Of a stretch of 45,072 nt of DNA, positions 10,576 through 27,450 are shown piece by piece (position 1 is the first letter of the stretch; each line of letters opens with the position of its first letter). The translations under genes and the position numbers were made by a program. This DNA comes from Brevundimonas sp. Lineage in GTDB: Bacteria; Pseudomonadota; Alphaproteobacteria; Caulobacterales; Caulobacteraceae. The stretch is from assembly GCF_016463485.1 (NCBI RefSeq), contig NZ_JAEMRD010000001.1, positions 110,245-155,316 of the forward strand. Reading direction: 5' to 3'. The notes under the pieces were generated by a model. That model made no database searches, was not told the DNA's origin, and saw only the letters and a list, made by a program, of their open reading frames with translations.

Positions 10576-10631
10576 GGCCTCAGGCGGAGAGGGAACAACC
10601 GGACTGGTGTTGGAATCGATGGCGACGCAGG

Positions 10632-11297: not shown

Positions 11298-11315
11298 CGG
11301 AATGGACCGCCTGCA

Positions 11316-11344
11316 TTGCATTCCTCTAGCATCCGAGCTAACAC
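11316..11344 (+). promoter_or_regulatory. Predicted promoter of the F420/catabolic operon
   Basis: TTGCAT (11316-11321), a 17-base spacer and TAACAC (11339-11344) resemble a sigma-70 promoter 62 bases before the SDR start codon. The -10 element lies inside the palindromic operator, which fits repression by exclusion. There is no experimental evidence. Confidence 0.45.
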
Positions 11345-11353
11345 CTGTTAGCT
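11336..11353. promoter_or_regulatory. TetR-type operator, site 2 (perfect palindrome)
   Basis: AGCTAACACCTGTTAGCT is an 8+8 perfect inverted repeat around a CC centre, the size and symmetry usual for a TetR dimer. It is the best copy of three in the window and sits between the tetR-type gene and the SDR that opens the F420 operon, overlapping the predicted -10 box. Confidence 0.7.
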
Positions 11354-11405
11354 AAGAGGGCCGCGTAGCCCCGTGATGCGGTTGGGCAGGACCCGGGAGA
11401 GATCG

Positions 11406-12197
11406 ATGACAGGACGCTTGGGCCGCCTCTCTGGCAAGGTCGCGATCATCACGGGCGCCAGCAAGGGTACGGGCGCCGTCATGGCCAGGCAGTTCGTGAA
11501 CGAGGGCGCCAAGGTCGTCCTGGTGGCACGACGTGAAGCCGAGGTGCTCGCGGCCGCAAAAGAGGCGGGTGAGGGCGCGATCGGCGTGCGGGCCGACATC
11601 ACCAACGAGGACGATATCCGCATCATGGTCGACCGGGCGCTCGATGCGTTCGGACAGGTCGATATCCTGCTCAACAACGCCGTCATTCCCGGGCAGGACA
11701 AGTTTGTCTGGGAACAGACGCTCGAGAACTGGAACGCTGTGATCAGCGTCGCCCTCACTGGCCCCATGCTGTGTGCGCGCGAGGTCTTGCAGCGCTCGAT
11801 GTTGGAGCGGCGGACCGGGTCCATCATAAATTTCTCATCGACGGCCGGTTGGACCGGGATGCCGCGCAAGTCCCACTACGTTACGGCCAAGGCGGCCCTG
11901 CGCGCGCTTACGAAGGTGATTGCGACCGAGGCCGGCGAGTTCGGAATCCGCTGCAACTGCCTGGTCCCCGGGGGGATCGAGACCGACCTCTGGAAAAACT
12001 GGGGCGTCCGGATGGCGGCAGAACAGGGCATCAGTTTCGAGGACTGGAAAACCAAGGCCCTTTCCGAGGTGCCGTTGCGCACGATTTCCCAGCCGGAAGA
12101 CATCGGCAACCTGGCCCTTTTCCTGGCCAGCGACGAAAGCCGAACCATCACCGGACAATCCATCAACTGTGACGCCGGTGGCGTCATGGTGGGCTGA
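11406..12197 (+). CDS. Short-chain dehydrogenase/reductase (SDR)
   Basis: The 263-residue classical SDR interconverts an alcohol and a ketone with NAD(P). The Rossmann motif TGASKGTG is at residues 16-23 and NNA at 90-92. The catalytic set is Ser144/145 (NFSST), Tyr158 and Lys162 (YVTAK), with PGGIETD and the C-terminal SDESRTITGQSINCDAGG as in 3-oxoacyl-ACP-reductase-type SDRs. ATG 11406 is preferred because GGGAGAG lies 5 bases before it; an in-frame ATG at 11373 overlaps the promoter region. It is the first gene of the run that ends with cofC, with 11 bases before the next gene. Substrate unknown. Confidence 0.93.
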   Translation: MTGRLGRLSGKVAIITGASKGTGAVMARQFVNEGAKVVLVARREAEVLAAAKEAGEGAIGVRADITNEDDIRIMVDRALDAFGQVDILLNNAVIPGQDKFVWEQTLENWNAVISVALTGPMLCAREVLQRSMLERRTGSIINFSSTAGWTGMPRKSHYVTAKAALRALTKVIATEAGEFGIRCNCLVPGGIETDLWKNWGVRMAAEQGISFEDWKTKALSEVPLRTISQPEDIGNLALFLASDESRTITGQSINCDAGGVMVG

Positions 12198-12208
12198 GGG
12201 CAAACGTC

Positions 12209-12697
12209 ATGACGAGTGAACATTCGACGCTAGAAGCCCGGCTGCAGAAGCTCGAGGACCAGCTTGCCATCTATCAGGTGGTCAATGGCTATGGGTATGC
12301 GGTCGACGGTCTGAATGCCGCAGCTGTCGGGGCCTGCTACACGGATGACGGCGTCTACGCTGTCGGCGACATCGGGGAGATGAAGGGGCGGGAGACCATC
12401 GAGGCCATCACGCGTGATCCGGGCCACCTCGCCTATGTCGGCGCCGGCTGCGCGCATATGTCGACCGTGCCGCATGTCCTGGTGGAGGGCGACAAGGCGA
12501 TCGCCACCTGTCACACGATGGTGGCCAGGCACGGCGACGACGGCTTCTTCATCGGTCGGCTGAGCGCGTCGCGCCTTGAGCTCGCTCGGCAATCGGACGG
12601 CGCGTGGAAGATTGTCCATCGCCAGAACAACATGCTGGATGGCGATCCTGCCGCCTCCCGATTGCTCGGCCGCCTGAAGGAGGGCCCGGGGCAATGA
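12209..12697 (+). CDS. SnoaL-like (NTF2-fold) protein, third copy
   Basis: The 162-residue protein belongs to the SnoaL-like superfamily (PF13577-type pattern: N-terminal helix LEARLQKLEDQLAIYQVVNGYGYAVD, then CYTDDGVYAVGD, GRETIEAI, HMSTVPHVLVEGDKAIATCHTMV and WKIVHRQNNMLDG). It is only distantly related to the tandem pair at 8001-9006. The ATG follows GAGGGCAAACGTC, and its stop overlaps the next start as ATGA, so translation is coupled with the Gfo/Idh gene. Likely a small isomerase or dehydratase of the pathway; the reaction is not determinable. Confidence 0.87.
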   Translation: MTSEHSTLEARLQKLEDQLAIYQVVNGYGYAVDGLNAAAVGACYTDDGVYAVGDIGEMKGRETIEAITRDPGHLAYVGAGCAHMSTVPHVLVEGDKAIATCHTMVARHGDDGFFIGRLSASRLELARQSDGAWKIVHRQNNMLDGDPAASRLLGRLKEGPGQ

Positions 12698-13773
12698 GTG
12701 CACAACCGCCGATCCGTGTCGGAATAGTGGGGGCCAACGCGAAGCGGGGCTGGGCGCGTGACGCTCACATCCCCGCGCTCCGAGAACTCTTGGGGGATTT
12801 TGTCCTATCGGCCGTCTCGGCCCGGACTCAGGTCTTGGCCGAGGAAGCGCGCGAAGCCTACGGGGCCGAGGCAGCCTTTGGGGATTCACTCGAACTGGCC
12901 CGCAGCCCCTCGATCGATCTGGTTTGCGTGGTGGTCAAGGTGCCCGAACATCGCGCCGTCGTCCTCGCGGCCCTGGCGGCAGGCAAGCACGTCTATTGTG
13001 AATGGCCTCTGGGTTGCGACCTTGCAGAGGCGCAGGAGATGGCCGCAGCAGTCGGTCCAGGGAGCCATGTGATGATCGGCCTACAGGGCCTCTCGTCTCC
13101 TGCGGTGCGCGCGGCGATTGATCTTGTACAGAGCGGCTCCGTCGGGCGTCCGCTGGCGATGAGGGTGTATTCCCCCACGGCCGGATGGGGCACTCAAGCA
13201 CCGCCGCACTACGCCTATCTTCAGGACAAGCGAAACGGCGCAACCCTGGAGACCATCGCGGGCGGTCACACCCTGGCAGTGATGGAGGCGCTCGTCGGTG
13301 CGTTCGTCGAGGTGGATGCGCGCAACAGCATACTACACAGTCAAATCGATGTGGTCGGGGAGGGGGCTGTCGAGCGGACCTGCGCCGATCACATGATGGT
13401 CCTGGGGCGTCATGCCGGGGGCTGTGTGTCGACCCTCGAAGTCGCGGGGGGCGTCACCGGAAAGCCCTTCCGGCTGGAGTTGGACGGCGACGCGGGATGG
13501 ATTCGCATCACCGGGGATTTCGTCGGTGGGTTCCAGGGGGGCGTTCTGACGCTGGAGACCAGCGTGAACGATCCGCCGCCGGTCGTTGCGACTACAGACC
13601 TGACCGGGCCGCCGGCGAACCTAGCTGAGAGCTATGCGCGCCTGGCCTCGGACATCCGCGCCGGACAGCGAACAGTCCCCGACTTTGAACGCGCGGTTCG
13701 GCTGAGCCGACTGCTTGAGACCATCGACCTAGCATCGACGTCCGGCCACCGGACGACAGGAGCACCGACATGA
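12694..13773 (+). CDS. Gfo/Idh/MocA-family (Gal80-like) NAD(P)-dependent oxidoreductase
   Basis: The 359-residue protein has an N-terminal Rossmann domain (VGIVGANAKRGWARDAHIPA) and the family's conserved strand-loop GKHVYCEWPL near residues 105-114. The usual Glu-Lys-Pro of the family is here Glu-Trp-Pro, as in Gal80-like members, so the catalytic Lys of EKP is missing. The C-terminal alpha/beta domain contains the repeated HTLAVMEALVG and SLN/VTG strands. Relatives oxidise sugars, inositols or related alcohols; Gal80 itself is a sensor. The true start is ATG 12694, overlapping the stop of the SnoaL gene as ATGA. The stop overlaps the next gene by four bases. Either a redox enzyme of the pathway or, because of the altered motif, something less usual. 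Confidence 0.88.
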   Translation: MSAQPPIRVGIVGANAKRGWARDAHIPALRELLGDFVLSAVSARTQVLAEEAREAYGAEAAFGDSLELARSPSIDLVCVVVKVPEHRAVVLAALAAGKHVYCEWPLGCDLAEAQEMAAAVGPGSHVMIGLQGLSSPAVRAAIDLVQSGSVGRPLAMRVYSPTAGWGTQAPPHYAYLQDKRNGATLETIAGGHTLAVMEALVGAFVEVDARNSILHSQIDVVGEGAVERTCADHMMVLGRHAGGCVSTLEVAGGVTGKPFRLELDGDAGWIRITGDFVGGFQGGVLTLETSVNDPPPVVATTDLTGPPANLAESYARLASDIRAGQRTVPDFERAVRLSRLLETIDLASTSGHRTTGAPT

Positions 13774-14723
13774 AGTTCACCATGGCCATCCCCGTCGGCG
13801 ATATCACGCCCGGCGAATTTCAGACCATAGAGGCGATGCGCGAGATGGCGGTCGCGCTTGAAGCGGCGAAGGTCGACGCCTGCTACCTCACCGACCATCC
13901 GGCCCCTTCAGCGGAGTGGCTGCACGCCAATGGCCATGACGCGGTCGATCCGTTCACGACATTCGGCTTCCTTGCGGCGATGACGACGCGGTTGAAGTTC
14001 CACACCAACATCTTGGTCATGCCGTACCGAAATCCATTCCTGACGGCGAAGGCCGCCGCCACCTTGCAGGTTCTGTCGGGTGGTCGGCTGATCCTCGGCC
14101 TGGGAGCCGGTTACCAGAAGATCGAGTTCGAGGCCCTGGGCGTGGACTTTCACAAGCGCGGCGCGATTTTCGACGAAGGCCTCGAAGTCCTGCGTCTGGC
14201 ATGGGCCGGGGGCGCCGTGGTCAAGGAAGGCCGCAACTTCATTGCCCGAGGCAACGAGCCCCGGCCCACGCCCGACACCCAGCCGCCCGTCTGGATCGGC
14301 GGCGGCAGCGACAAGGCCGTGGAGCGCGCTGCCAAATGGGGGGACGGCTGGTCGCCGTTCTTTGCCGCGCCCGGCATGACTTCCCTCAATCAGGAGTCCG
14401 GCATCCATTCGGTCGAGCAACTGAGTGGCAAGATTTCGGATCTCCAGGAGATGAGGGCCGCCCAGAACAAGGCGGGGCAGTTCGATATCTGCATCGGACC
14501 GCAAGAGAAGCTGGTGTTCGGCGCGAAGGACGGAATCCAGAAATATATCGATGACATCGGCGAGCTCGCATCCGTGGGCGTAACCTGGGCCATGGTCGAG
14601 CCCCCACACCCGAGCCGACAGGCCTATATTGAACACGTGCAGTGGTTCGGCGAGGAGATCGTCGGTCGCCTATTCCCGTCCAGCCGGTCCGATACAGCGG
14701 CGTCGCCCGGAGAAGAGTGGTGA
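13770..14723 (+). CDS. LLM-class flavin/F420-dependent oxidoreductase
   Basis: The 317-residue protein is a luciferase-like TIM barrel. Features are the N-terminal strand MKFTMAIPVGD, the cofactor-side segment CYLTDHPAP, VDPFTTFGFLAAMTTRLKFHT, the signature ILVMPYRNPFLTAKAAATLQVLSGGRLILGLGAGY, and VWIGGGSDKAVERAAKWGDGW. That pattern matches the Rv2161c-type group of probable F420-dependent enzymes more than FMN-dependent two-component monooxygenases. Co-location with all F420 synthesis genes, immediately upstream and in the same operon, strongly supports F420 rather than FMN as cofactor. Such enzymes transfer hydride between F420 and alcohols, aldehydes, imines or conjugated ketones. It overlaps the preceding gene as ATGA, and a 35-base gap precedes the CofGH gene. 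Confidence 0.9.
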   Translation: MKFTMAIPVGDITPGEFQTIEAMREMAVALEAAKVDACYLTDHPAPSAEWLHANGHDAVDPFTTFGFLAAMTTRLKFHTNILVMPYRNPFLTAKAAATLQVLSGGRLILGLGAGYQKIEFEALGVDFHKRGAIFDEGLEVLRLAWAGGAVVKEGRNFIARGNEPRPTPDTQPPVWIGGGSDKAVERAAKWGDGWSPFFAAPGMTSLNQESGIHSVEQLSGKISDLQEMRAAQNKAGQFDICIGPQEKLVFGAKDGIQKYIDDIGELASVGVTWAMVEPPHPSRQAYIEHVQWFGEEIVGRLFPSSRSDTAASPGEEW

Positions 14724-14758
14724 CGACAGTCTTCTCGTTGCGCCAGCGGAGCATGTGA

Positions 14759-17083
14759 ATGTCGGGCTTCGCGTCAGACCTGTCCGCCGGGGCGATCGCT
14801 GCAGTGTTGGAGGCCACACCGCTGCACAGCCTGGTCCGCGACGCCGAGGCCCTGACGCTGGCGCATCACGGAAGCATGGTCACCTATTCGCGCAAAGTGT
14901 TCATCCCGCTCACACGTCTCTGCCGAGACGTCTGTCACTACTGCACTTTCGCCACGACGCCGAGCCACGTCGAGAGCGCCTATCTGGATCGTGAAGCCGT
15001 GCTGACGATTGCGCGGGCGGGAGCCAAGGCCGGCTGCCGCGAAGCTCTGTTCACGCTCGGCGATGTCCCCGAGGCCCGCCATCCGGCCGCTCGCAAGGCG
15101 CTGGAAGCCCTTGGTCACGAGACGACGCTCTCCTATCTGCGCGAAGTGGCTCAACTGGTCCTCGACGAGACAGGGCTGTTGCCTCATCTCAATCCGGGCC
15201 TGATGAGCGATGCAGACTTTGCCGCGCTTCGGCCGGTCGCGGCGTCCATGGGCCTGATGCTGGAGTCCACGTCAGAACGCTTGGGTCAGCGCGGTGGCCC
15301 CCATTTTGGATCGCCCGACAAGGCGCCGGGCAATCGCCTCGCTTCGATCGAGGCGGCGGGCCGTGCGGCCGTGCCGTTCACCACCGGGTTGCTGATCGGC
15401 ATCGGCGAAACCCGGGCCGAGCGGATCGAGACCCTGGTCGCGATCCGCGATCTGCATCTGCGTTACGGTCATATCCAGGAAGTCATCGTCCAGAATTTCC
15501 GGGCCAAGCCCGGTACGAAAATGGCGGATCATCCCGAGCCCTCGCTCGGCGATCACCTTTGGACGGTCGCGGCGGCCCGGTTGATCCTGGGCGGAGAGAT
15601 GACGATCCAGGCTCCGCCCAACCTGCAGTCCGACGCTCTGCCGCAACTGCTCGCGGCCGGGGTCAACGACTGGGGCGGGGTGTCGCCCGTCACGCCTGAT
15701 CACGTCAATCCTGAAGCGCCCTGGCCGCACCTGGATGCCCTCGCCAAGGTCACGGCCTCTGCCGGACGGGTCCTGGTCGAACGTCTCGCCGTTGCGCCCA
15801 AGTTTGCCCTTGAGGCGGGCCATTGGCTGGATCCGAAACTGGCCACCGGCGTCCGCCGCGCCGTGGATGCCCGAGGACTACCGTTGGTCGAAGCCTGGCG
15901 CGCGGGAGGCGTCGAGCCTGCGCCCTCGATCCTGCAGACAGGCATCACGACGTCGTCAAGGCGGATCGACGAACTCATTGCGCGGGCATCAGTCGGCGAA
16001 CGGCTCGACGTGTCCGACATCACAACGCTGTTTCTGGCCGATGGACCTGACGTTGCGCGCCTGTGCGCCGCAGCGGACGAGCTTCGTCGTCAGGCGTCGG
16101 GCGATGCGATCACCTATGTGGTCAACCGCAACATCAACTACACCAACATCTGCCTGTACCGCTGCACCTTCTGTGCCTTCTCCAAGGGCGGCACACGGGA
16201 CCTGCGAGGGCCGGCCTATCTGGTCGAGGATGCCGAGGTCGGGCAGCGCGCGGCAGAGGCGGTCGCCCGTGGCGCTACCGAGGTGTGCATGCAGGGCGGC
16301 ATTCACCCGAAATTTGACGGGTACACCTACCACCGACTTCTGGGCGCCGTTCGCACCGCCGCCCCCGATGTGCATATCCACGCCTTCTCGCCGCTGGAGA
16401 TCAGCCACGGGGCCAGCAGCCTCGGCATGCCTCTGGACGCCTATCTCGCCTGGCTGAAAGAGGCCGGTCTCTCGACCTTGCCGGGCACCGCCGCCGAGAT
16501 CCTCGACGATGAGGTTCGCGCGCTCATCTGTCCGGACAAGGTCAACACCCAGGAGTGGCTGGACGTAATGCGGGCCGCCCACGAGGTGGGCCTGCGCTCG
16601 ACCGCCACCATCATGTTCGGCCATGTCGACAGCTATCATCACTGGGCGAAGCATCTGTTGGCCATCCGCGATCTGCAGGAGCAGACGGGTGGATTCACCG
16701 AGTTCGTGCCTTTGCCGTTCGTGCATATGGAAGCGCCCATGTGGCGCAAGGGCGGCTCTCGTTCGGGCCCCAGTTTCCGCGAGGCCCTGCTGATGCACGC
16801 GGTCGCCCGGTTGGTGCTGCATTCCTTCATTCCGAACATCCAGGCCAGCTGGGTGAAGATGGGGCCGGATGGCGTGGTTGCGGCCTTGCGAGCCGGTGCC
16901 AACGATCTCGGCGGGACGCTGATGGATGAATCGATAACCCGGGCCGCCGGCGGCCGGCACGGCCAGCTTTGCGGTGCCGAACAGATGCATGCGTTGGCTA
17001 TCAGGGCCGGTCGGCCCCTGGTTCAGCGCACCACGACCTACGGGAGCGTCGCCAGCCGCGCGCCCCTCACAACAGGAGCTTGA
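14759..17083 (+). CDS. fbiC: 7,8-didemethyl-8-hydroxy-5-deazariboflavin (Fo) synthase, CofG-CofH fusion
   Basis: The 774-residue protein joins both radical-SAM halves of Fo synthase, which build the deazaflavin chromophore of coenzyme F420 from tyrosine and 5-amino-6-ribitylaminouracil. The CofG half (about 1-400) carries the cluster motif CRDVCHYC (Cys55, Cys59, Cys62). The CofH half (about 450-774) carries CLYRCTFC (Cys465, Cys469, Cys472) and the family piece NRNINYTNIC. Fusion in this order is as in actinobacterial FbiC; archaea use separate proteins. ATG 14759 follows the LLM gene by 35 bases, and the stop is one base before the GTG of npdG. All six cluster cysteines are present, so the enzyme looks intact. 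Confidence 0.96.
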   Translation: MSGFASDLSAGAIAAVLEATPLHSLVRDAEALTLAHHGSMVTYSRKVFIPLTRLCRDVCHYCTFATTPSHVESAYLDREAVLTIARAGAKAGCREALFTLGDVPEARHPAARKALEALGHETTLSYLREVAQLVLDETGLLPHLNPGLMSDADFAALRPVAASMGLMLESTSERLGQRGGPHFGSPDKAPGNRLASIEAAGRAAVPFTTGLLIGIGETRAERIETLVAIRDLHLRYGHIQEVIVQNFRAKPGTKMADHPEPSLGDHLWTVAAARLILGGEMTIQAPPNLQSDALPQLLAAGVNDWGGVSPVTPDHVNPEAPWPHLDALAKVTASAGRVLVERLAVAPKFALEAGHWLDPKLATGVRRAVDARGLPLVEAWRAGGVEPAPSILQTGITTSSRRIDELIARASVGERLDVSDITTLFLADGPDVARLCAAADELRRQASGDAITYVVNRNINYTNICLYRCTFCAFSKGGTRDLRGPAYLVEDAEVGQRAAEAVARGATEVCMQGGIHPKFDGYTYHRLLGAVRTAAPDVHIHAFSPLEISHGASSLGMPLDAYLAWLKEAGLSTLPGTAAEILDDEVRALICPDKVNTQEWLDVMRAAHEVGLRSTATIMFGHVDSYHHWAKHLLAIRDLQEQTGGFTEFVPLPFVHMEAPMWRKGGSRSGPSFREALLMHAVARLVLHSFIPNIQASWVKMGPDGVVAALRAGANDLGGTLMDESITRAAGGRHGQLCGAEQMHALAIRAGRPLVQRTTTYGSVASRAPLTTGA

Positions 17084-17084
17084 C

Positions 17085-17750
17085 GTGAGCGAGACAGATA
17101 TCGGCACAATCGCAGTCATCGGTGGAACGGGGGCTCTTGGTTCCGCCATTGCCCGACGACTCGCAAAGGCCGGCCGGACGGTCATCGTGGGGTCGCGGAC
17201 GCTGGAAAGCGCTGCATCGGCCGCTGAAACCCTCGGGTTCGGAATCACCGGCCTTGCCAACGAAGACGCCGCCGCCGCTGCCGACATCGTGATCGTCACG
17301 GTCCCCTTCGCCGCCCAGGGCGATACGCTGCGCCAGATCGCGCCTCATCTGACCGGCAAGATCGTCGTCGACACCACGGTGCCCTTGGTCCCGCCAAAGG
17401 TCATGCGCGTCCAACTGCCGCCTGAGGGGAGCGCCGCCGTGCGGGCTCAGGGGATCCTCGGGGATGGCGTGACGGTTGTCTCCGCCTTCCACAATGTGGC
17501 GGCCCACAAGCTGATCAAGGATGAGGATGTCGCCTGCGACGTTCTGGTGTTCGGTGACGACAAGGCGGCGCGCACAAAGGTGATCGGTCTGGTCCGCGAC
17601 TGCGCCCTGCGGGGGTTACATGGCGGGGCCCTGGTGAACTCGGCCGCCGCCGAGGCCATGACCTCGCTGCTCATCTTCATCAACAAGACCTATGCGGTCG
17701 ACGGCGCCGGGTTGCAGATCACGGGAACCCTGACCGAGCCGGCCGACTGA
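17085..17750 (+). CDS. npdG: F420H2:NADP+ oxidoreductase (NADPH-dependent F420 reductase)
   Basis: The 221-residue protein passes hydride between NADP(H) and F420. It has the short Rossmann N-terminus IAVIGGTGALGSAIARRLAKAG and VIVGSRTLESA, the NADP-selective region of Fno/NpdG. Further family pieces are VIVTVPFAAQ, KIVVDTTVPLVPP, VVSAFHNVAAHKL and VLVFGDDKAAR. The start is GTG 17085, with AGGAG 6 bases upstream; in-frame ATG codons further left lie inside fbiC. It is coupled to fbiC and is followed by cofE after two bases. In a reductive catabolic system it would supply F420H2 to the LLM enzyme from NADPH. Confidence 0.94.
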   Translation: MSETDIGTIAVIGGTGALGSAIARRLAKAGRTVIVGSRTLESAASAAETLGFGITGLANEDAAAAADIVIVTVPFAAQGDTLRQIAPHLTGKIVVDTTVPLVPPKVMRVQLPPEGSAAVRAQGILGDGVTVVSAFHNVAAHKLIKDEDVACDVLVFGDDKAARTKVIGLVRDCALRGLHGGALVNSAAAEAMTSLLIFINKTYAVDGAGLQITGTLTEPAD

Positions 17751-17752
17751 GC

Positions 17753-18520
17753 ATGGGCGCGCGGTCCGTCGAGATCCATCCGCTTGTCGGAATCGGGGAA
17801 GTCCGGCCGGGCGACATCCTCGAAGACCTGCTCGTCGCCGCCCTGGATGAGGCGGGCCTGACGGTGACAGGCCACGACATCCTCGTCGTAACCTCCAAGA
17901 TCGTGTCCAAGGCCGAGGGCCGCCTTGTCGATCTTGTGACCGTTCGGCCGGGAGATGAAGCGCGTCGTCTGGCCGACATCACGCGAAAGGATGCGCGGCT
18001 TGTCGAAATGGTCCTCGGCGAGTCGGACTCGGTGGTTCGCGCCGTTCCCCACGTTTTGATTACTCGTCACCGCCTGGGATTGGTGATGGCCAATGCCGGG
18101 ATAGACCAATCCAATCTCGGGAACGCCATGGCCGATCAGGTTCTGCTCCTGCCCCTCGATCCTGACCAGTCAGCGGATCGTTTGAGAACAGCCATGGCGA
18201 AACATTTTGGCGTCGCTCCGGCCATCGTCATCTCCGACAGTTTTGGCAGGCCTTGGCGACATGGCGTCGTCAATGTCGCCATCGGGGCAAGCGGACTTCC
18301 GGCGCTGCTGGACAAGCGTGGGGAACCGGATCGTGACGGACGCACACTGGAGGTGACCCAGATCGCCTTGGGCGACATGATCGCAACGGCGGCCGGACTG
18401 GTGTGCGGCGAGGGCGACGAGGGCATTCCTGCGGCCCTTGTCAGGGGCTATCGATGGAGCGGCCAGAGCTTTCCGGCGACTGCACTTGTCCGGCCTGCTG
18501 AACAGGACCTGTTTCGGTGA
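17753..18520 (+). CDS. cofE: Coenzyme F420-0:L-glutamate ligase (CofE type, no reductase domain)
   Basis: The 255-residue protein adds glutamate residues to F420-0. Its motifs DILVVTSKIVSKAEGR, GLVMANAGIDQSNL, VISDSFGRPWRHG and NVAIGASG are those of CofE/FbiB. Mycobacterial FbiB has a second, FMN-binding nitroreductase-like domain (about 200 more residues) that reduces dehydro-F420-0. Here the protein ends after the ligase domain, like archaeal CofE. This bears on which precursor is used (see findings). ATG 17753 follows npdG directly; the last four bases overlap the GTG start of cofD. Confidence 0.95.
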   Translation: MGARSVEIHPLVGIGEVRPGDILEDLLVAALDEAGLTVTGHDILVVTSKIVSKAEGRLVDLVTVRPGDEARRLADITRKDARLVEMVLGESDSVVRAVPHVLITRHRLGLVMANAGIDQSNLGNAMADQVLLLPLDPDQSADRLRTAMAKHFGVAPAIVISDSFGRPWRHGVVNVAIGASGLPALLDKRGEPDRDGRTLEVTQIALGDMIATAAGLVCGEGDEGIPAALVRGYRWSGQSFPATALVRPAEQDLFR

Positions 18521-19449
18521 GCGGGCGCACCCTTGTCCTGACCGGCGGGGTCGGCGGCGCCAAGCTGGTGCTCGGACTTCAGCAGGTCGTGGAACCCTCC
18601 AGCATCACCGCCATCGTCAACACGGGCGACGATTTTCGCCACCTCGGCCTGTGGGTCTCACCCGATATCGACACCCTGCTGTACACCCTCAGTGGACAGG
18701 CCAATGCAGCTCAGGGGTGGGGACGCGAGGGCGAAACCTGGGCCTTCATGGACGCCCTTAGACTGTTGGGGGGCGAGGACTGGTTTGCCCTGGGGGACGG
18801 CGACCTGGCGCTTCATGTTCTGCGGTCGGCTCGGCTGGCGGCAGGAGACACCCTGACGACGATCACGGCCGATTTCGCAAGCGCCTGGGGCATCGGCGCG
18901 CGCATCCTGCCCATGAGCGATCAGCCGGTATCGACTCATCTCGATACCGAGGAGGGCGACCTGGCCTTTCAGACCTATTTCGTCGAGCAGCGGTGTCTTC
19001 CTGTCGTCCGTCGCATCAGTTTTCAGGGCGCGGCTGCCGCCCGGCCCGGGCCCGATGTTATCTCCACGATCCTGGCCGAAGACGTGCAGGCCATTCTGAT
19101 CGCGCCGTCCAACCCCTATCTGAGCATTGACCCGATTCTGGCGGTTCCGGGCATCCGAGACGCCCTCCATTCAGCGCGGGCACCCGTGGTGGTGGTGTCG
19201 CCCGTCGTCGACGGTAATGCCGTCAAGGGGCCAACGGCCAAGCTCATGCGAGAACTCGGGAGTGCTGTGTCGCCCGAAGCCGTGCTCGCGCACTATGGGG
19301 ATGTGGTTGACGCGATGCTGGTCGACGAGCGCGACGCCGTTCTTGACCTCGGCGTGCCCCATGATGTCTGCGACACCCTAATGCACACCCTGGCTGACCG
19401 CGCGCGGGTGGCCAGGGCGGCGCTGGCGTTGGCGGACCGGCTGCAATGA
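18517..19449 (+). CDS. cofD: 2-phospho-L-lactate transferase (CofD/FbiA)
   Basis: The 310-residue enzyme joins Fo to the activated side-chain precursor made by CofC, giving (dehydro-)F420-0. The N-terminal glycine motif LTGGVGGAKLV (residues 8-18), IVNTGDDF, GLWVSPDIDTLLYTLSG, the middle segment GDGDLALHVLRSARLAAG and IAPSNPYLSIDPIL are typical. The start is GTG 18517, overlapping the cofE stop by four bases, and its own stop overlaps the cofC start in the same way. Such tight coupling with all other F420 genes indicates one polycistronic message. Confidence 0.96.
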   Translation: MSGRTLVLTGGVGGAKLVLGLQQVVEPSSITAIVNTGDDFRHLGLWVSPDIDTLLYTLSGQANAAQGWGREGETWAFMDALRLLGGEDWFALGDGDLALHVLRSARLAAGDTLTTITADFASAWGIGARILPMSDQPVSTHLDTEEGDLAFQTYFVEQRCLPVVRRISFQGAAAARPGPDVISTILAEDVQAILIAPSNPYLSIDPILAVPGIRDALHSARAPVVVVSPVVDGNAVKGPTAKLMRELGSAVSPEAVLAHYGDVVDAMLVDERDAVLDLGVPHDVCDTLMHTLADRARVARAALALADRLQ

Positions 19450-20069
19450 CCGCCTGGACCGCTCTTGTGCCGATCAAGGCGGCAGGTCGGCGCAAGACCC
19501 GGCTGAGTCCGGTGTTGAGCGAGGATGCGCGAGACGAACTCGCGGATCGCATGCTGCACCGAGTGCTGGCTGCGCTGGCCGCCTCACCGTCGGTGAGGGA
19601 GGTCATCGTGCTTTCGTCGGTGCGCCCGAAGGGTTGGCGCGGGCGATTAAGCATCGATCATGGGCGCGGCCTCAACCCGGAACTGGCGGCTGTTGCCCGT
19701 GGCATTGCCGGCCGGTTGATGGTTGTCCACGCAGATCTGCCGACCCTCGCCCCGGATGACGTGGAAGCCCTGGTCGAGATGGGCGAGGGCGGCGTCGCCA
19801 TCGCACCAGATCGTTGGTCACGCGGGACCAACGCCTTGGCCGCACGCGAAGCCGGCAACCTAAGGTTCGCCTTCGGTCCCGACAGTCTGGCGCTTCATAG
19901 GAGCCTAATGCCGAGCGCGGCGATCGTGCGCCGACCTGGCCTCGCTCTCGACCTCGACCTTCCACTCGATCTGGAGGACGCCGTTGAGCAAGGATTTCTT
20001 CCACCTACGTCGCCCGGGGCAAAGGCACCGACCGCGTTTGACATTTCACTTCAAGCTTTCACCTGTTAG
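19446..20069 (+). CDS. cofC: 2-phospho-L-lactate (or PEP / 3-phosphoglycerate) guanylyltransferase (CofC/FbiD)
   Basis: The 207-residue nucleotidyltransferase uses GTP to activate a phospho-acid for CofD. The glycosyltransferase-A-like fold shows in VPIKAAGRRKTRLSPVLS (nucleotide-binding loop), MVVHADLPTLAPDDVEAL (metal-binding Asp) and AIAPDRWSRGTNALA. Bacterial homologues differ in substrate (2-phospholactate, phosphoenolpyruvate or 3-phosphoglycerate), and sequence alone does not settle it here. It overlaps cofD by four bases. Its last codons contain operator site 3 and a TTGACA hexamer, so the 3' end also serves as regulatory DNA for the next gene. Confidence 0.92.
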   Translation: MTAWTALVPIKAAGRRKTRLSPVLSEDARDELADRMLHRVLAALAASPSVREVIVLSSVRPKGWRGRLSIDHGRGLNPELAAVARGIAGRLMVVHADLPTLAPDDVEALVEMGEGGVAIAPDRWSRGTNALAAREAGNLRFAFGPDSLALHRSLMPSAAIVRRPGLALDLDLPLDLEDAVEQGFLPPTSPGAKAPTAFDISLQAFTC

Positions 20070-20071
20070 CT
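20054..20071. promoter_or_regulatory. TetR-type operator, site 3, overlapping the cofC stop codon
   Basis: AGCTTTCACCTGTTAGCT matches the palindrome at 11336 in 16 of 18 positions, and the right 12 bases are identical. A TTGACA hexamer at 20038-20043 is a possible -35 element. It covers the last codons and stop of cofC and lies about 150 bases upstream of the alpha/beta hydrolase, which it probably controls. The -10 box is not clear. Confidence 0.6.
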
Positions 20072-20222
20072 TGATGGTTCTCGTAATGCTCGGGTTTGGT
20101 AGGTCGATAGTCCGGCCATTCGGCAACGGGCGAAGGAGCGGCCACGGGTTTCACATCACAGGAAGCGACCCGGCTGACCGGGTGTCTTCAGTCACAATCA
20201 AGGTCAGCAGGAGACGACGGAC

Positions 20223-21188
20223 ATGACGGACGCCACCCCCCCGATGCAGCATGTGCCGGCGCGGGATATTCCCATCCCTGCTTTTCTGAGCGACATCGCC
20301 CGCGCCTATCTGGGTCCGGGCATGCCTAGCCCACCCTATCCGCCGATCGAGGACAAGGCGGCTTGGCGGGCGCTGGTGTCGGCGACCGATGAGGCTGTGT
20401 TGCCCTTCCTGAGCGGCATGATGGCTCATTTTCAGGCTGAGGTGGAAACCCGGGACGCCGATGGTGTGCGCGTCTACGATATCCAACCGCAAGGCCTCGC
20501 GTCGGACAGTCGGGGCGTCGTCCTCGACCTGCATGGGGGCGGGCTGATCATGTGCGGCGGGGAGCTGTGCCGCATGATGGGTATCGGTTCCGCAGCGCGC
20601 CTCCAACGCAGGGTCTGGGCGGTCGACTACCGGATGCCGCCGGACCATCCCTATCCAGCCCCCCTAGACGACTGCATCTCAACCTATCGCGCGCTGTTGA
20701 GTGTGGTGCCCGCGACCGACATCATCGTCAGTGGAGGATCGGCCGGCGGCAACCTGGCTGCCGCTTTGATCCTGAGAGCCCGGGACGAAGGTCTGCCCCT
20801 GCCGGCCGGTCTGGTTCTGGCGACACCCGAGATCGATTTGACGGAATCTGGCGACAGCTTCCACACCAACAACGGCGTTGACCCGGGGCTCAGAAGCCTC
20901 ATGCCGGTCAACCTTCTTTATGCCGACGGGCACGACCTGAACCATCCTTATCTGTCGCCATTGTTCGGCGATCTGACCAAGGGGTGGCCTCGGACCATCC
21001 TGACGACAGGCACGCGCGACCTCTACCTCTCGAATACGGTTCGGATGCACCGCGCCCTGCGGGCTGCGGGCGTGTCGGCGGAACTGCACGTCACCGAAGC
21101 CGGCCCGCACACTGGCTTCCCCGGGGCACCAGAAGGCCTGGCGATCGACGAGGAAGTCCGGCGGTTCATCGCAGAATGCCTCGGCTGA
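20223..21188 (+). CDS. Alpha/beta hydrolase, hormone-sensitive-lipase (HSL) type
   Basis: The 321-residue protein is a serine esterase of the HSL family. The oxyanion motif HGGG lies at 104-107. The nucleophile is Ser173 in GGSAGG, and the acid and base are probably Asp266 (TTGTRDLYLS) and His296 (EAGPHTGF), so the triad is complete. No signal peptide is seen, so it is cytoplasmic. ATG 20223 follows AGGAGACGACGGAC. It stands downstream of operator site 3 and is closed by a strong terminator, hence an own transcript or the tail of the F420 operon. Likely an ester or lactone hydrolase of the pathway; the substrate is open. Confidence 0.93.
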   Translation: MTDATPPMQHVPARDIPIPAFLSDIARAYLGPGMPSPPYPPIEDKAAWRALVSATDEAVLPFLSGMMAHFQAEVETRDADGVRVYDIQPQGLASDSRGVVLDLHGGGLIMCGGELCRMMGIGSAARLQRRVWAVDYRMPPDHPYPAPLDDCISTYRALLSVVPATDIIVSGGSAGGNLAAALILRARDEGLPLPAGLVLATPEIDLTESGDSFHTNNGVDPGLRSLMPVNLLYADGHDLNHPYLSPLFGDLTKGWPRTILTTGTRDLYLSNTVRMHRALRAAGVSAELHVTEAGPHTGFPGAPEGLAIDEEVRRFIAECLG

Positions 21189-21199
21189 AGTCCAGATCT

Positions 21200-21225
21200 G
21201 CGGGCGGCCATCAAAAGCCGCCCGC
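21200..21225. terminator. Terminator between convergent hydrolase and ABM genes
   Basis: A perfect 9-bp stem (GCGGGCGGC / GCCGCCCGC) with an 8-base loop containing AAAA lies 12 bases after the hydrolase stop. It can serve both converging transcripts. No long T-run follows. Confidence 0.65.
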
Positions 21226-21229
21226 TGGC

Positions 21230-21526
21230 CTAGAACAGCGACGTTGGCACGACATGGATGACCGAGGGCGTCTCGGTCATGAACGGTCCAGCCATCGCCA
21301 CGAACTCTGCGAAATCTGCGGATTTGGTGAAGATCTCGGTGTGGTCCTCGACCGTGTTCCATCCGATCCTGAGTACATAGCGGCCGGGCGTCTCGACCAT
21401 CCGCTCAAGCGCCAGGCTGGTGCAGCCCTGAGCTCTGCGGAAAAGCGGCGCGGTCGCTGCGATGGCGGCCTCGAACGCCACTGCTTTTTCGGGCGCGACC
21501 TGAATCGTGGCTTGTTCAAAGATCAT
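21230..21526 (-). CDS. Antibiotic-biosynthesis-monooxygenase (ABM)-like domain protein
   Basis: The 98-residue protein has the dimeric alpha/beta-barrel pattern of ABM proteins: strand MIFEQATIQV, helix with FEAAIAATAPLFRRAQGC, then SLALERMVE, YVLRIGWNTVEDHTEIFTKS and FAEFVAMAGPF. Relatives are cofactor-free monooxygenases of polyketides, or accessory proteins. It is the second gene of a leftward pair, 36 bases after the aldolase gene. The ribosome binding site is weak. It may act on an aldol or diketone intermediate; this is inferred only from position. Confidence 0.82.
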   Translation of the reverse strand: MIFEQATIQVAPEKAVAFEAAIAATAPLFRRAQGCTSLALERMVETPGRYVLRIGWNTVEDHTEIFTKSADFAEFVAMAGPFMTETPSVIHVVPTSLF

Positions 21527-21562
21527 CTGGGCGGCCTGTTCGCGAAAGGGGTTGAGAGTCGT

Positions 21563-22330
21563 TCAGCCCGTGAAGGCGGTGACGATCGTGCGGCAATCCG
21601 CCAGGGCGCGTTTGGCCCCACTGATCAGGAACAGGCCAGCCGCCGAGACCGGAATGAACCGGATGCCGCGGGCCAGCAGTTCCTCGACTTCGGACGCATC
21701 CATCGCCGCATTACCGGCGACCTTGCCGTGCTTGCGGCAGGCCTCCACGATCTTTTCCATCGCTTCCACCACCGGCGGAGGCGGCGAGGAGGCATAGATT
21801 TGTTCTTTGGGCAGCCCCATGCTGACGGCCAGGTCGGCCCCGCCCAGCAGGACTCCGTCCACGCCCGGCGTTGCGACAATGGCCTCCAGGTTCTGCATCC
21901 CCTCGACCGTTTCGATCATCACCATGCAAAACGGATCCTGGCTCAGCGGGTCGCCGCCCAGAGTATTTCGCGCCGCCCCAATCGATCGCGTGCCATGCGG
22001 AGGAAACCGGGTGGCGTCCGCCACAAACTTCGCCTGGTCTGCAGTGGACACCATCGGCACCACGACGCCGATCGCGCCGATATCCAATGCCCGCCCGATT
22101 TCCGCAGGATCATGCCCCGTGACGCGAACGAGCGAATGGGTTCCTCCCAGCTGCAGCGACTGGAGCAGGGACAACAGACCGTCCCAACTTGCCGTACCGT
22201 GCTGAAGATCGACGATGACCCAGTCGAAGCCGATCGCACCGCAACGCTCTGCAATAAGGTTGCACCGGATGCCGTACCACGTGCCGAGAGTGGCCGCCTC
22301 GTTCTCCAGCGCCCTGCGTATCGGGTTCAT
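21563..22330 (-). CDS. HpcH/HpaI-family aldolase (class II, pyruvate-type)
   Basis: The 255-residue TIM-barrel protein cleaves or forms C-C bonds of 2-keto-3-deoxy or similar hydroxy-acids with a divalent metal. Family marks are GTWYGIR, FDWVIVDLQHG (catalytic His of the D-x-x-H pair), RALDIGAIGVVVPMVST, FCMVMIETVEGMQNL (metal-binding Glu) and VDGVLLGGADLAVSMGLP (metal-binding Asp). ATG 22330 is preferred to ATG 22465 because AGGAG lies 6 bases upstream and the extra 45 residues match nothing in the family. It is divergent from the OYE-like gene and co-directional with the ABM gene. It would fit the lower part of a ring-opening pathway, giving pyruvate or similar. Confidence 0.92.
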   Translation of the reverse strand: MNPIRRALENEAATLGTWYGIRCNLIAERCGAIGFDWVIVDLQHGTASWDGLLSLLQSLQLGGTHSLVRVTGHDPAEIGRALDIGAIGVVVPMVSTADQAKFVADATRFPPHGTRSIGAARNTLGGDPLSQDPFCMVMIETVEGMQNLEAIVATPGVDGVLLGGADLAVSMGLPKEQIYASSPPPPVVEAMEKIVEACRKHGKVAGNAAMDASEVEELLARGIRFIPVSAAGLFLISGAKRALADCRTIVTAFTG

Positions 22331-22650
22331 GCGCAACTCCTGCTGTGAGTTCGGTCCGCCTGCATAAGCGTCTTCCATCCCCGCGACCGCCGATCGTCCA
22401 TCAGGGCCCGTACAGGTATCACGCCCGATCAGACCCGGCTCCGATATCGGCCGCAGCGGTGGCAAGGCATCGTACGGGCGGTAATCGCGGCGCGGTCGTT
22501 GCCGTCACTCGCAGGCCCGCAATAAAGGTCCAGTGCGGTCCGTCGGCCGGTTTTTAGGTCCTTGTCACCTGAGACTCGCGGTCAGGCCGAGCTCTCGAAG
22601 GACCTTGGACGCGCGCATCTCCCCTAGCGCCCTCGCACCCAGGATACGCC
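22331..22650. other. Divergent intergenic region with nested inverted repeats
   Basis: This 320-base gap between the aldolase and OYE-like genes holds no supported gene. In the OYE-like leader, AGGTCCTT (22556-22563) and AAGGACCT (22598-22605) form an inverted repeat that encloses a smaller one, CCTGA (22568) and TCAGG (22582). The CACCTGTTAGCT site is absent. It must hold both promoters, but I see no convincing -35/-10 pair. Confidence 0.35.
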
Positions 22651-24672
22651 ATGATCAACGATCCGCTGCTTCAGCCTTTCCAGACCAAGAACCTGAAGTT
22701 CAAGAACCGTATGGTCCATGCACCGACGACCATGAACATGTCGGATCCGACCGGACACGTCACCGGAAAGATCACCGGCGCTTATGAAAGCTTCGGGGCA
22801 GGCGGGTTCGGCGCGGTTTGCGTCGGTGCCACATGCGTTCGCCATGACGGGCTGATCAACGAACGGATGCTGGGGCTGTATGACGACACCTACATCATCG
22901 GACAGCGCGACCTGGTTGAGGTGATCCACAATAATGGTGCGCTTGCCGGTATCCAGCTGTTCTACGGTGGCCTGATCCCCGGCGTCGGCGCATCCTTCCC
23001 TATCGATCCCGGCAAGGGCTGGATCCCGGGCACCGTGGCCTGGGGGCCGACAGCGGCCTATGCGATTGGGAACCGGGAGCCGGGCGTGGTTCCCACCGAG
23101 GTCTATCGCAGCCTGGTCGAGGATTTCGCCCAGGCCGCCCGTCGGGCTCGCGAGGCCGGATACGACTACATCTCATACCATTTCTGCCACGGATCCTTGC
23201 CGCACGTGACGCTATCGCTGCTGGCCAACAACGGACGAAACGACGAGTATTCGGACCATTTCCTGTTCTGCGAGCAGATCATCGAGCGGACCCAGGAACT
23301 CTGCGGCAAGGATTTCCCCCAGTTCCCGCGCATGTGCTGCGACGAGAACTACGAGGGCGGCTACGACATCGATTATTTTGTCGAGCACTATGCGCCCCGT
23401 CTCCACGCCCTCGGCGTTGAGGGGATCGATGCGACCTTTGGCTCGATGTTGCCGGCCAAGGACCGCAACCCGGAATTGAGTTCGGGCGAGATGATCGGGG
23501 GGGGCTTCTACACCCCCAATCTTGTTACGCTTCCCAGCGTCGAAAAGCTCCGAGCCGGCCTTCAGGCCAAGGGCATCGATATGCCCCTGATGGGGTCGTG
23601 CAACATCAATACGCCCGACCAGATGCGCACGATGATCCGGCCGGGCGCCGCCGATCTGTTCGCCTCCTGCCGCCAGTCGCTCGACGATCCGGATTTTCCC
23701 CGCAAGATCGCCGAGGGGCGCGAGGAGGATATTCGGAGGTCGACCCGCACAGGTGCTTCGCTCCTTCAGGGCAACATCTTCAACAAGGGGTGGGCCGGTT
23801 CGGCCCAGAACGCGAACTTTGGACGCGATCGGGAATACAGGATCACGCCCACCCACAGGCCGCGAAAGGTCGCGATTGTCGGTGGTGGATCGGGCGGTAT
23901 GGAATACGCGATCGTCGCTGACGCGATCGGTCATGACGTGATCCTGTTCGAGAAATCCGACAAGCTTGGCGGCGTGATGAACTGGGCCGGCAACTATCCT
24001 CATCTGCCCAACATGGAGCAGATCGCCTACCAGCCCGAGTGGCACCGCACCATGATCGCAAAGAGCAGCGTCGAGGTCCGGCTGGGCCAGGACGTCGATG
24101 CCGAACAACTGATTGCCGAAAGACCCGACGTGGTCGTGATCGCGACCGGGGCTCGACCCATGCAAGTGCAAGCTGAAGGTCTCGACGAAGCCCTGGAGGG
24201 CGGGTTCGCGCTCCTGATCGATGACGTTCTCAAAGACAGGTCGGTCCTGCCCGCAGGCCCCATTGTCATCTGGGGTGCGGGCGAAGGGATCGAGCTCGCA
24301 CTGGACTTGGCGCGGGCGGGTCATGACGTTCGGCTGCTCGACCCCAAGGCGACGCTGGCTCCGGCTCCCTATATCGGTTCGCGGTCCAAGGCTGTGATGC
24401 GTTGGGCGGGGCAGGCCGGACTGACGTCCGAGCCAGGCATGACTCTGACGTCGGTTGGCGGCGGGTCGGTCCGCGTCGCTCACCCGGATGGGCGGACGGA
24501 AGACATCTCCTGCTCCGCGCTCATAATCGCCCCGGGCCGCACGGCGTATGATCCGCTGTCCATGGCCTTGTACGGCACAGGGATCACCGTTCAGGTGATC
24601 GGCGACGCCCGCTCGCCACGATCCTATGGCAATGCGATCCACGAAGCGGCCTATCTCGCCCGAAATATCTAA
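22651..24672 (+). CDS. OYE/2,4-dienoyl-CoA-reductase-type flavoprotein lacking the Fe-S cysteines
   Basis: The 673-residue protein has an N-terminal Old-Yellow-Enzyme TIM barrel (about 1-350; [19 protein letters not shown] at 176-194 and GRNDEYSDH correspond to the family's active-site region). The C-terminal FAD/NAD(P) part contains [14 protein letters not shown] (about 408-420) and [18 protein letters not shown]. The layout is that of dienoyl-CoA, trimethylamine or enoate reductases. In those proteins four cysteines (CxxC..C..C) between the two parts bind a 4Fe-4S cluster. Here the matching stretch (residues about 361-393, RRSTRTGAS then [10 protein letters not shown]) has none. ATG 22651 follows AGGATACGCC, and folE follows after four bases. 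Likely a divergent ene/dienone reductase; how electrons pass without the cluster is open. Confidence 0.88.
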
Positions 24673-24676
24673 ATTG

Positions 24677-25246
24677 ATGATTGATCCTGTCTCCGCCGCC
24701 GAGGCCGAAGCCGCCGTCCGCACCCTGATCCGGTGGGCCGGGGACAATCCAGACCGCGAAGGCCTGCTCGACACCCCCGCCCGCGTCGCTCGGAGCTAGA
24801 GGGAGCTTTTCGAGGGCTACGAAGGCGACCCTAGGGCTTATCTGGAACGTACCTTCGAGGAAGTCGGAGGCTACGACCAGCTCGTCGTCTTGAAGAATAT
24901 CCGCTTCGTCAGCTTCTGCGAGCATCACATGCTGCCGGTCGTCGAGGTTGCCCATGTCGGCTACCTGCCCACGGATCGGGTAGTCGGCATCTCCAAGCTG
25001 GCGCGCGTCGTGCGCGGCTATGCGAAACGACTACAAATTCAGGAGAAGATGACGGCCGAGATCGCCACGGCCATCGAGGAGGTCCTTCATCCCGCCGGCG
25101 TCGGTGTGGTCATCGAGGCTGAGCACAGCTGCATGACACTGCGCGGGATCAATGCTCCCGGTGCCAAGCTGACCACCTCCAGCCTGCGGGGCGTGGTGCG
25201 CGATGATCCGCGCACGCGCGAGGAGTTCCTGCGTCTGACGCGGTGA
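24677..25246 (+). pseudogene. folE: GTP cyclohydrolase I gene with in-frame amber stop
   Basis: The reading frame from ATG 24677 to TGA 25244-25246 encodes a near full-length GTP cyclohydrolase I (about 189 codons), the first enzyme of tetrahydropterin/folate synthesis, but codon 41 is TAG (24797-24799). Upstream it reads [13 protein letters not shown], downstream [11 protein letters not shown]. The family normally has an aromatic residue exactly there, and TAG is one base from TAC, TAT or TGG. The rest is intact: FCEHHMLP with the zinc Cys and His, [23 protein letters not shown], and the second zinc Cys in EHSCMTLRG. Internal starts such as ATG 24890 would lose the N-terminal third. It is therefore a young pseudogene, a read-through gene or a sequencing error. 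It is coupled to the OYE-like gene. Confidence 0.85.
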
Positions 25247-25339
25247 CACCGTATTCCGGCGTCCAAGCGATCCTCTTTACCCAGAGAACCCCAACACCGG
25301 CCCCGCTGCAGGAGTGCATCTGTTCAGGATCACCGGCGG

Positions 25340-25735
25340 CTAGAGGCGAAAGAGCGGCCAGATCGCCATGCCGAGGCCGACCAGGCTTGTCAGAAAAATG
25401 AGCGTGCGAACCTTGGGGATTCCAGCCGCATAGACGGGGAGGTATACGAGCCGCGCACCGAGCCAGATCCAGCCGCCGATCGCAGTCCAAAGATCGCCAC
25501 GGCCGCTGACGACCACGCCGAGCAGAGCGATGACGGCAATCGGCAACGTCTCCAGGTAATTCGATTGAGCGCGCACGAGACGTCCGGCACCGGGATCGAG
25601 CGGGGCGAGGACATCATCACGAGCCCCCATATTCCAGTCGACGCCGTACTGTTTTGTTTTCAGGTGAGCGGCTGCGAAGATGTGAACCATCAGCAGAACG
25701 GCAGCCAGCGCCAAGATGAGGAGTTCAGAATTCAT
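25340..25735 (-). CDS. MAPEG-family membrane protein
   Basis: The 131-residue protein has four membrane helices: residues about 3-22, then after the loop a second after RAQSNYLETLPIAVIALLGVV, a third with IGGWIWLGARLVYLPVYAAG and a last LIFLTSLVGLGMAIWPL. RAQSNYLETLP is the conserved motif of membrane-associated eicosanoid/glutathione proteins (PF01124 type). Bacterial members have uncertain function, some with glutathione transferase activity. ATG 25735 has AAGGGCG in front; the 30-residue longer form does not fit the family. It stands alone and is not obviously tied to the F420 block. Confidence 0.87.
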   Translation of the reverse strand: MNSELLILALAAVLLMVHIFAAAHLKTKQYGVDWNMGARDDVLAPLDPGAGRLVRAQSNYLETLPIAVIALLGVVVSGRGDLWTAIGGWIWLGARLVYLPVYAAGIPKVRTLIFLTSLVGLGMAIWPLFRL

Positions 25736-25882
25736 GGCGTCGCCCTTCGATAGGATCAGATTGGAAGATCGTCCGGGCAAGCTGTCAATCCAGGCCAAGT
25801 CGTTTATCGGGGCGGCGATGGGCACATCCGGCTTGACCGAGGCGCGGGTTCGGGAGCGCGCTCCACAGGGCTGGAGACGACC

Positions 25883-27226
25883 ATGACGCCACAGTGCGCG
25901 ATGACGCCAGAGATGACGCTGGGCATCGACTTCGGCACGACCAATACGGTGGTCGCCCTGACGGGCGTGGACGGTGCGGTCGCGGTGTTACGGTTCGCAG
26001 CTCCGGACGGCGATCTGACCGCCTTCCGCTCGACCTTGAGCTTCCAGATCCATGAGGACGCCGACGGCGTGGCCGAACGGGTGGTGGAGGCCGGTCCCTG
26101 GGCCATAGACGCCTACGTCGAGGATCCGCTCGACACCCGTTTCATTCAGTCATTCAAGACCTTCGCCGCCAGTCCAGCCTTCACGGAGACCGTCATCGAC
26201 AACCGCCGATACGGCTTCGAGGACCTGCTATCGTCCTTCCTGCTCCGGTTGCGTCAGCGTGGTGGGCCGGCAATGTCCGTGCTCCCAGCGCGGGTTATCG
26301 TTGGACGGCCGGTGACCTTCGCCGGTGGATCGGACGAGCAGCTGGCGCTGGATCGTTACGAGACCGCCTTCGCCCGGCTGGGGTTCACCGACATCCGCTA
26401 TGCCTATGAACCGGTTGGAGCCGCCTTCTTCTTCGCGCGTCAACTCACGAAAGCAGCCACGGTCTTGGTCGCCGACTTTGGAGGAGGCACCAGCGACTTC
26501 TCCATCGTGAGATTCGAACCGTCGGCCTCTGGCCCGAGCTCTACCGCTCTGGCGCGCGCAGGGGTGGGAGTGGCTGGGGACGCCTTCGACTACAGGATCA
26601 TTGACCAGCTGGTATCGCCGGAGCTGGGCAAGGGCGGCGAGTACCGCAGCTTCGAAAAGGTGCTGCCCATTCCCCAGCGGTACTACGCCGCCTTTGCCCG
26701 CTGGGATCAGCTCGCCCTTTTGCGGGCGTCTCGGGACATGAAAGATATCCGCGATATCGCACGTAACGCCCTGCAGCCTGAAAGGCTGTTTCGACTGATC
26801 GAGGTACTGGACGATAATCACGGCTACGCCCTCTACCAGGCTGTATCCCGTCTGAAGATGGATCTGTCACGCAACGAGGTGGCGACGTTCCGCTTCGAGG
26901 CCGGCACGATCCGGATCGAGACGCCCGTCGCCCGATCGGACTTCGAGGGCTGGATCGCTCCAGAGCTCGCGGCCATCGAACGCGCCGTCGACCAGGCCAT
27001 CGCCATGTCACATCTGGAGCCACACCAGATCGATCGCATCTTCTTGACCGGCGGATCCTCTTTTGTACCGGCCGTACGCGACATCTTCCGACGCCGCTTT
27101 GATCCCAATAGGATCGAAACTGGCGGCGAGTTCGAGTCGATCGCGGTGGGCTTGGCCCTGATCGGTCGCGAGCCGGAACTCGAGCTGTGGACCGAGCGGC
27201 AAGAGAGGGGCGGACAGGTCGCCTAA
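25883..27226 (+). CDS. Hsp70-family ATPase, YegD-like
   Basis: The 447-residue protein has the actin/Hsp70 nucleotide-binding fold without the usual substrate-binding domain. Visible parts are the phosphate-1 motif LGIDFGTTNTVVAL (about 12-25), VIVGRPVTF, YEPVGAAFFFARQL, phosphate-2 LVADFGGGTSDFSIVRF, and the adenosine motif IFLTGGSSFVPAVRDIF. This arrangement and length match YegD, a poorly known chaperone-like protein of many Gram-negative bacteria. ATG 25883 has GGAG 6 bases upstream; ATG 25901 and 25913 are alternatives closer to the domain. Confidence 0.9.
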   Translation: MTPQCAMTPEMTLGIDFGTTNTVVALTGVDGAVAVLRFAAPDGDLTAFRSTLSFQIHEDADGVAERVVEAGPWAIDAYVEDPLDTRFIQSFKTFAASPAFTETVIDNRRYGFEDLLSSFLLRLRQRGGPAMSVLPARVIVGRPVTFAGGSDEQLALDRYETAFARLGFTDIRYAYEPVGAAFFFARQLTKAATVLVADFGGGTSDFSIVRFEPSASGPSSTALARAGVGVAGDAFDYRIIDQLVSPELGKGGEYRSFEKVLPIPQRYYAAFARWDQLALLRASRDMKDIRDIARNALQPERLFRLIEVLDDNHGYALYQAVSRLKMDLSRNEVATFRFEAGTIRIETPVARSDFEGWIAPELAAIERAVDQAIAMSHLEPHQIDRIFLTGGSSFVPAVRDIFRRRFDPNRIETGGEFESIAVGLALIGREPELELWTERQERGGQVA

Positions 27227-27231
27227 TCCTG

Positions 27232-27450
27232 TCACGGGGTCGTTCTCGTCGGAGGTGGTCTGATGGCCATGGGGGCGACGTCACGCTCGTCCTCGATCGT
27301 AAAGGCCCCGGCCGGCGCGAGATCTTCGAACCAGGCAATGGCTCTGGCGCGGGTTCGCGCGCCGTCATCGTGGTCGATCAGGACGGGATGGCTGGGATGA
27401 TCGTCTTCGACCAGGGACGCCGCGCCAGGCGGCACGTGCAGGGTGGGCAT
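27232..27450 (-). CDS. Small hypothetical protein
   Basis: A 72-codon frame on the minus strand begins MPTLHVPPGAASLVED and ends near the Hsp70 stop. Codon third positions are rich in G/C as in neighbouring real genes, and the sequence is acidic and Pro-rich with no recognised motif. The frame stays open further upstream (to 27855) but there lies antisense to a better supported gene, so the ATG at 27450 is my choice. The ribosome binding site is weak. Real coding is possible, not proven. Confidence 0.4.
   Translation of the reverse strand: MPTLHVPPGAASLVEDDHPSHPVLIDHDDGARTRARAIAWFEDLAPAGAFTIEDERDVAPMAIRPPPTRTTP

Follow-up and report, generated by a model that had tools for sequence, protein, structure and literature searches.

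An interrupted third copy of folE at the end of an F420 gene island in Brevundimonas is very probably a pseudogene of a redundant paralogue

How should a GTP cyclohydrolase I gene (folE) be read when its frame is closed by an in-frame TAG at codon 41 while both of its halves are otherwise well conserved? The gene in question lies in a stretch of 45,072 nucleotides (here called the window, C61:110245–155316 of assembly G000), from a genome of 3.70 Mb in 261 contigs (95.24% complete, 3.37% contamination) that was assigned as Brevundimonas-like, most of its nearest named relatives being Brevundimonas. A sequence-only reading of the window had offered three explanations for the stop codon, namely very recent loss, a base error in the assembly or amber read-through, and had added that the copy may be, or may have been, devoted to a local pathway together with the adjoining OYE-like gene. 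We consider it very probable that the window folE is a pseudogene of a redundant paralogue, a case of ordinary gene decay, and very recent loss proved the best of the three options; the evidence for this, and the alternatives, are discussed below.

The folE frame (24677–25246, forward strand) comprises 189 codons and on translation contains a single internal TAG (24797–24799, forward strand), which agrees with the sequence-only reading and with a whole-genome search of G000, where the gene is likewise listed with one TAG inside. The stop falls after 40 of the 189 codons and is an inactivating lesion. Matches to PF01227 lie on both sides of it, at 3.5e-06 for residues 1–40 and at 8.3e-57 for the 148 residues past the TAG, and take up profile positions 2–30 and 34–178 of 179 in order, such that homology extends over the whole domain but no single open frame spans it. 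Compared with FolE as known from this family and its solved relatives (4uqf, 1fb1, 1fbx), both halves match in order, whereas the window frame is closed at codon 41 and the Gly of codon 90 is replaced. C81, H84 and C152, which from the E. coli and human enzymes we take to be the zinc and catalytic residues, are all retained. The codon 41 residue is Tyr in all 81 aligned intact relatives of the same subfamily, and in 95/95 rows when codons are counted (TAT in 63, TAC in 32; five of the rows are duplicates), confirming that the TAG occupies a normally aromatic position. Besides the stop, there is one striking replacement: codon 90 (24944–24946, forward strand) encodes Glu, whereas all 95 rows have Gly, making it the second invariant position to be changed. 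The window copy departs from its relatives at 3 of 101 conserved columns; more such departures are seen in seven of the 81 intact relatives and as many in five, and, the TAG and codon 90 aside, the window copy is no outlier among them, although the relatives used for these counts are the best 80 of 564 and the counts are biased towards close relatives.

The whole-genome search identified three folE genes in G000, two of which, on contigs C215 and C3, contain no stops, as anticipated by the sequence-only reading, which held that another folE should exist. The C215 gene (L001) has 86% amino acid identity to the window copy and adjoins fliQ and fliR, while the C3 gene has 51% identity and sits between cysS and exbD (these names were read from translations, FliR being confirmed by PF01311). 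Judged by their uninterrupted sequences, these two genes can cover folate synthesis in G000. A bin mix-up was considered as the source of the extra copy and rejected, as G000 has a single NuoD (on C61) and a single FliR (on C215) and neither contig resembles a foreign duplicate. A contaminant contig is also unlikely, since the same set of three folE copies is present in G595, a genome of the same genus assembled as one contig of 4.0 Mb, in which two of the three are again free of stops.

A folE match was found in 120 of the 121 genus genomes searched, and by count of rows there are two matches in 86 genomes, one in 27, three in seven and none in one. Both genomic settings recur in the genus: among the 30 best-scoring genus folE loci, 14 carry the subfamily of the window copy, 12 of these having fliQ within reach, and 16 carry the other kind of folE, every one beside cysS. 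Three matches were recorded in G000, G006, G013, G023, G059, G117 and G118. The apparent third copy of G059 consists of two contig ends that have 149 identical bases in common and represent one gene, and that of G023 of two end pieces covering complementary parts of the profile, presumably also one gene. In G013 two overlapping pieces lie in different frames on one contig (C123); these matches belong to its cysS-linked folE (L126 and L133), which looks as if frameshifted. In G006, G117 and G118 (L124, L128, L129) the additional folE belongs to a different subfamily and is 58–62% identical to the window copy.

The most informative comparison is with the orthologous locus of G595. The first searches of relatives and of the class with the OYE-like protein returned nothing but the window itself; G595 surfaced in a draw of the family in which three candidates were scored per genome, and is the only one of 389 other family genomes with an orthologue above 90% identity (96% identical, the next best being 60% and 61%). 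Between TetR and HSP70, F420 genes included, the gene order is as in the window, with 86–99% amino acid identity for all but folE, and additional DNA of approximately 5.6 kb separates the hydrolase gene from the HpcH gene. A folE lies at the equivalent spot and is also broken, in this case by a frameshift that results from a one-base insertion in the N-terminal part; it contains no TAG, and codon 41 in register is not Tyr. Each of the two lesions rests on one assembly. For 14 other genes the alignment of the window frame to G595 is uninterrupted, and the only other broken gene is cofE, in G595 (L210:7163–7923), where a one-base deletion near residue 134 causes a frameshift; the window cofE is intact, and the G595 frameshift reflects either decay of F420 synthesis in that genome or a base error. 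Nucleotide identity between the two islands (window 10591–27301 against L210/L211) is uneven, at 99% just past folE, 97.5% in the MAPEG gene, 95% in HSP70, 92% in folE, 91% in the OYE-like gene, 85% in HpcH and 96% in cofGH, as if stretches may have been exchanged.

In a FastTree phylogeny of 93 sequences, from which five identical rows had been removed, the third copies of G000 and G595 cluster with support 1.0, and this pair is sister to the fliQ-linked folE genes of the same two genomes (L001 and L213) with support 0.991. Since the third copies are sister to the fliQ-linked copies of both genomes, the duplication appears to be older than the split between G000 and G595, and the extra copy would then have been retained for some time. 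The two pairs have evolved very differently: 23.0 non-synonymous and 20.0 synonymous changes separate the third copies (dN/dS 0.377), compared to 5.5 and 47.5 (dN/dS 0.032; Fisher p 1.2e-5) for the fliQ-linked pair, which is strongly constrained and whose G000 member, unlike the window copy, has no stop. In 12 neighbouring genes dN/dS between the window and G595 ranges from 0.064 to 0.249, and the third folE differs both from their sum (p 1.0e-4) and from the OYE-like gene alone (p 2.4e-5); these 12 are drawn from the 15 other genes common to both loci, the remaining three being HpcH, a SnoaL gene and cofE, which is frameshifted in G595.

The G595 branch accounts for most of the relaxed constraint of the third-copy pair, and relaxation is not demonstrated for the window branch alone. 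Of 100 columns with at least 95% conservation among relatives, three are changed in the window copy and 12 in the G595 copy (p 0.029). Measured against the fliQ-linked copies, and leaving out sites at which those two differ, the window copy has three private amino acid changes and seven private synonymous codons, and the G595 copy 14 and two respectively (Fisher p 0.0085), although these counts are small. The window copy still looks constrained, with dN/dS of 0.105–0.172 to the 14 nearest of the 95 rows, in a codon comparison that excluded two gapped relatives (L009, L039), matches below 70% identity and matches shorter than 175 residues. As it is little changed beyond its TAG and codon 90, and its dN/dS is that of a constrained gene, its loss must be recent, and we infer that it was lost more recently in the window lineage than in that of G595.

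From the lesions as assembled, the stop-free paralogues, the tree and the excess of amino acid changes, all of which are shown above, we propose that the fliQ-linked folE was duplicated in an ancestor common to G000 and G595 and that one copy ended up downstream of the OYE-like gene, where the F420 gene island ends. There it would have been under purifying selection for a long time before losing its use, after which a nonsense codon would have disabled it in the window lineage and a frameshift in that of G595. As the lesions differ between the two lineages, inactivation was probably independent in each, although an ancestral nonsense codon shared by both and later changed in G595 would require no more base changes at codon 41. 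The interrupted window gene probably makes no enzyme. An inactivating lesion, stop-free paralogues, raised dN/dS and differing lesions are the marks of ordinary bacterial pseudogenes. The window folE likewise has a lesion and stop-free paralogues, and the third copies likewise show raised dN/dS and different lesions in two related genomes; the window copy stands out only by how little it has decayed so far.

A further reading concerns the neighbourhood of the gene. Directly upstream lies a gene for an OYE-like FMN/FAD oxidoreductase (22651–24672, forward strand; PF00724 and PF07992), whose stop codon is separated from the start of folE by four bases. Downstream, a MAPEG-family gene (25340–25825, reverse strand; PF01124) converges on folE from the opposite strand, and folE is therefore the last gene of its strand here. 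ARAGORN also called a 96-base tRNA-Phe at 24531–24626 on the reverse strand, antisense to the end of the OYE-like gene, but none of the RF00005 matches in the genome corresponds to it and it looks false. Further upstream are the F420 cofactor genes cofGH, npdG (NADPH:F420 reductase), cofE, cofD and cofC (14759–20069, forward strand), identified by NCBIfam equivalogs over cut-off, and the window also encodes an F420-type luciferase-like oxidoreductase (TIGR03619, over cut-off) as well as Rieske oxygenase, SDR, acyl-CoA dehydrogenase and thioesterase genes. This island of F420 biosynthesis and catabolic-type genes (window 9157–24672) is rare in the genus, CofH being found in two of the 121 genus genomes drawn, with G595, from outside that draw, the third. 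The other CofH genome of the draw, G059, has a cofGH 62% identical to that of the window and two folE genes, one of them split over contigs, and no third.

It could be argued that the third FolE was long dedicated to this island, supplying pterin for one step, and that selection maintained it from before the G000/G595 split until both lineages, in parallel, discarded it upon a change in that step. Because the third folE was retained for so long, a past role in the island is conceivable, but we consider this scenario unlikely, and a dedicated link between the window folE and the OYE-like gene or the F420 island is not supported by the comparisons made here. The OYE–folE pair was seen in G000 and G595 alone and folE is broken in both, which speaks against a lasting tie to the OYE-like gene of the kind that the sequence-only reading had allowed for. 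In G546, whose OYE-like protein is 60% identical, there is no folE within the 14.9 kb read, while in G545 a contig end lies too near the OYE-like gene for this check. Across 133 folE loci (L001–L133, with flanks of varying length) no OYE match lies beside folE except at L003 and L084, both of which correspond to the window, and no OYE match was found on plasmids at 1e-60. A comparison of 30 window genes with the HSP70 side of the locus in G034, G012, G001 and G019 revealed no empty site; HSP70 itself is common to these four genomes, and otherwise the only match was an acyl-CoA dehydrogenase at 29% identity in G019. The main text of a review of F420 (PMC8498797) returned neither 'GTP cyclohydrolase' nor 'folE' in a term search, and our literature search found no paper joining Brevundimonas, F420 and GTP cyclohydrolase.

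A simpler objection to a pseudogene of a redundant paralogue is that the TAG is a base error and the window copy an intact third folE. The codon is known from one assembly only, in 261 contigs, and the gene still looks constrained apart from the TAG; these two points speak for an erroneous base call. However, the orthologue in G595 is broken in a different way and there too codon 41 is not Tyr, the window copy holds its second change at the otherwise invariant codon 90, and the 14 other window frames align whole with G595, the one further break, in cofE, lying in G595 and not in the window. Taken with these observations, an assembly error is improbable as an explanation for the interrupted frame.

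Read-through of the TAG by amber suppression, yielding some full-length enzyme, is less probable still and would be very surprising. The frame past the TAG is still well conserved in G000, which favours read-through, but no tRNA with a CTA anticodon is present among the 34 tRNA genes called by ARAGORN at 35 RF00005 matches, a set that lacks Ile and Glu tRNAs in a genome 95% complete and from which a suppressor could thus be missing. Nor is TAG kept free of use as an ordinary stop, being the apparent stop of nine of 34 window frames (chosen because they are open), including nuoA and nuoF. In addition, G595 has a frameshift in place of the TAG, and the two stop-free paralogues remove the need for suppression. 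A restart of translation past the TAG to give a shortened FolE core that works alone is just as improbable, for while C81, H84 and C152 would all lie within a product begun at the TTG of codon 72 (24890), inspection by eye of the 18 bases preceding this codon revealed nothing resembling a Shine-Dalgarno sequence, the product would be without the N-terminal part of PF01227, and invariant residues inside the core are lost in G595.

Recoding is thus made unlikely, and on our preferred reading, that of a pseudogene, the interrupted gene is a decaying spare and not the only folE of the cell. It provides a small, clean example of two related lineages in which distinct lesions have disrupted the same supernumerary paralogue, decay having gone further in one than in the other.
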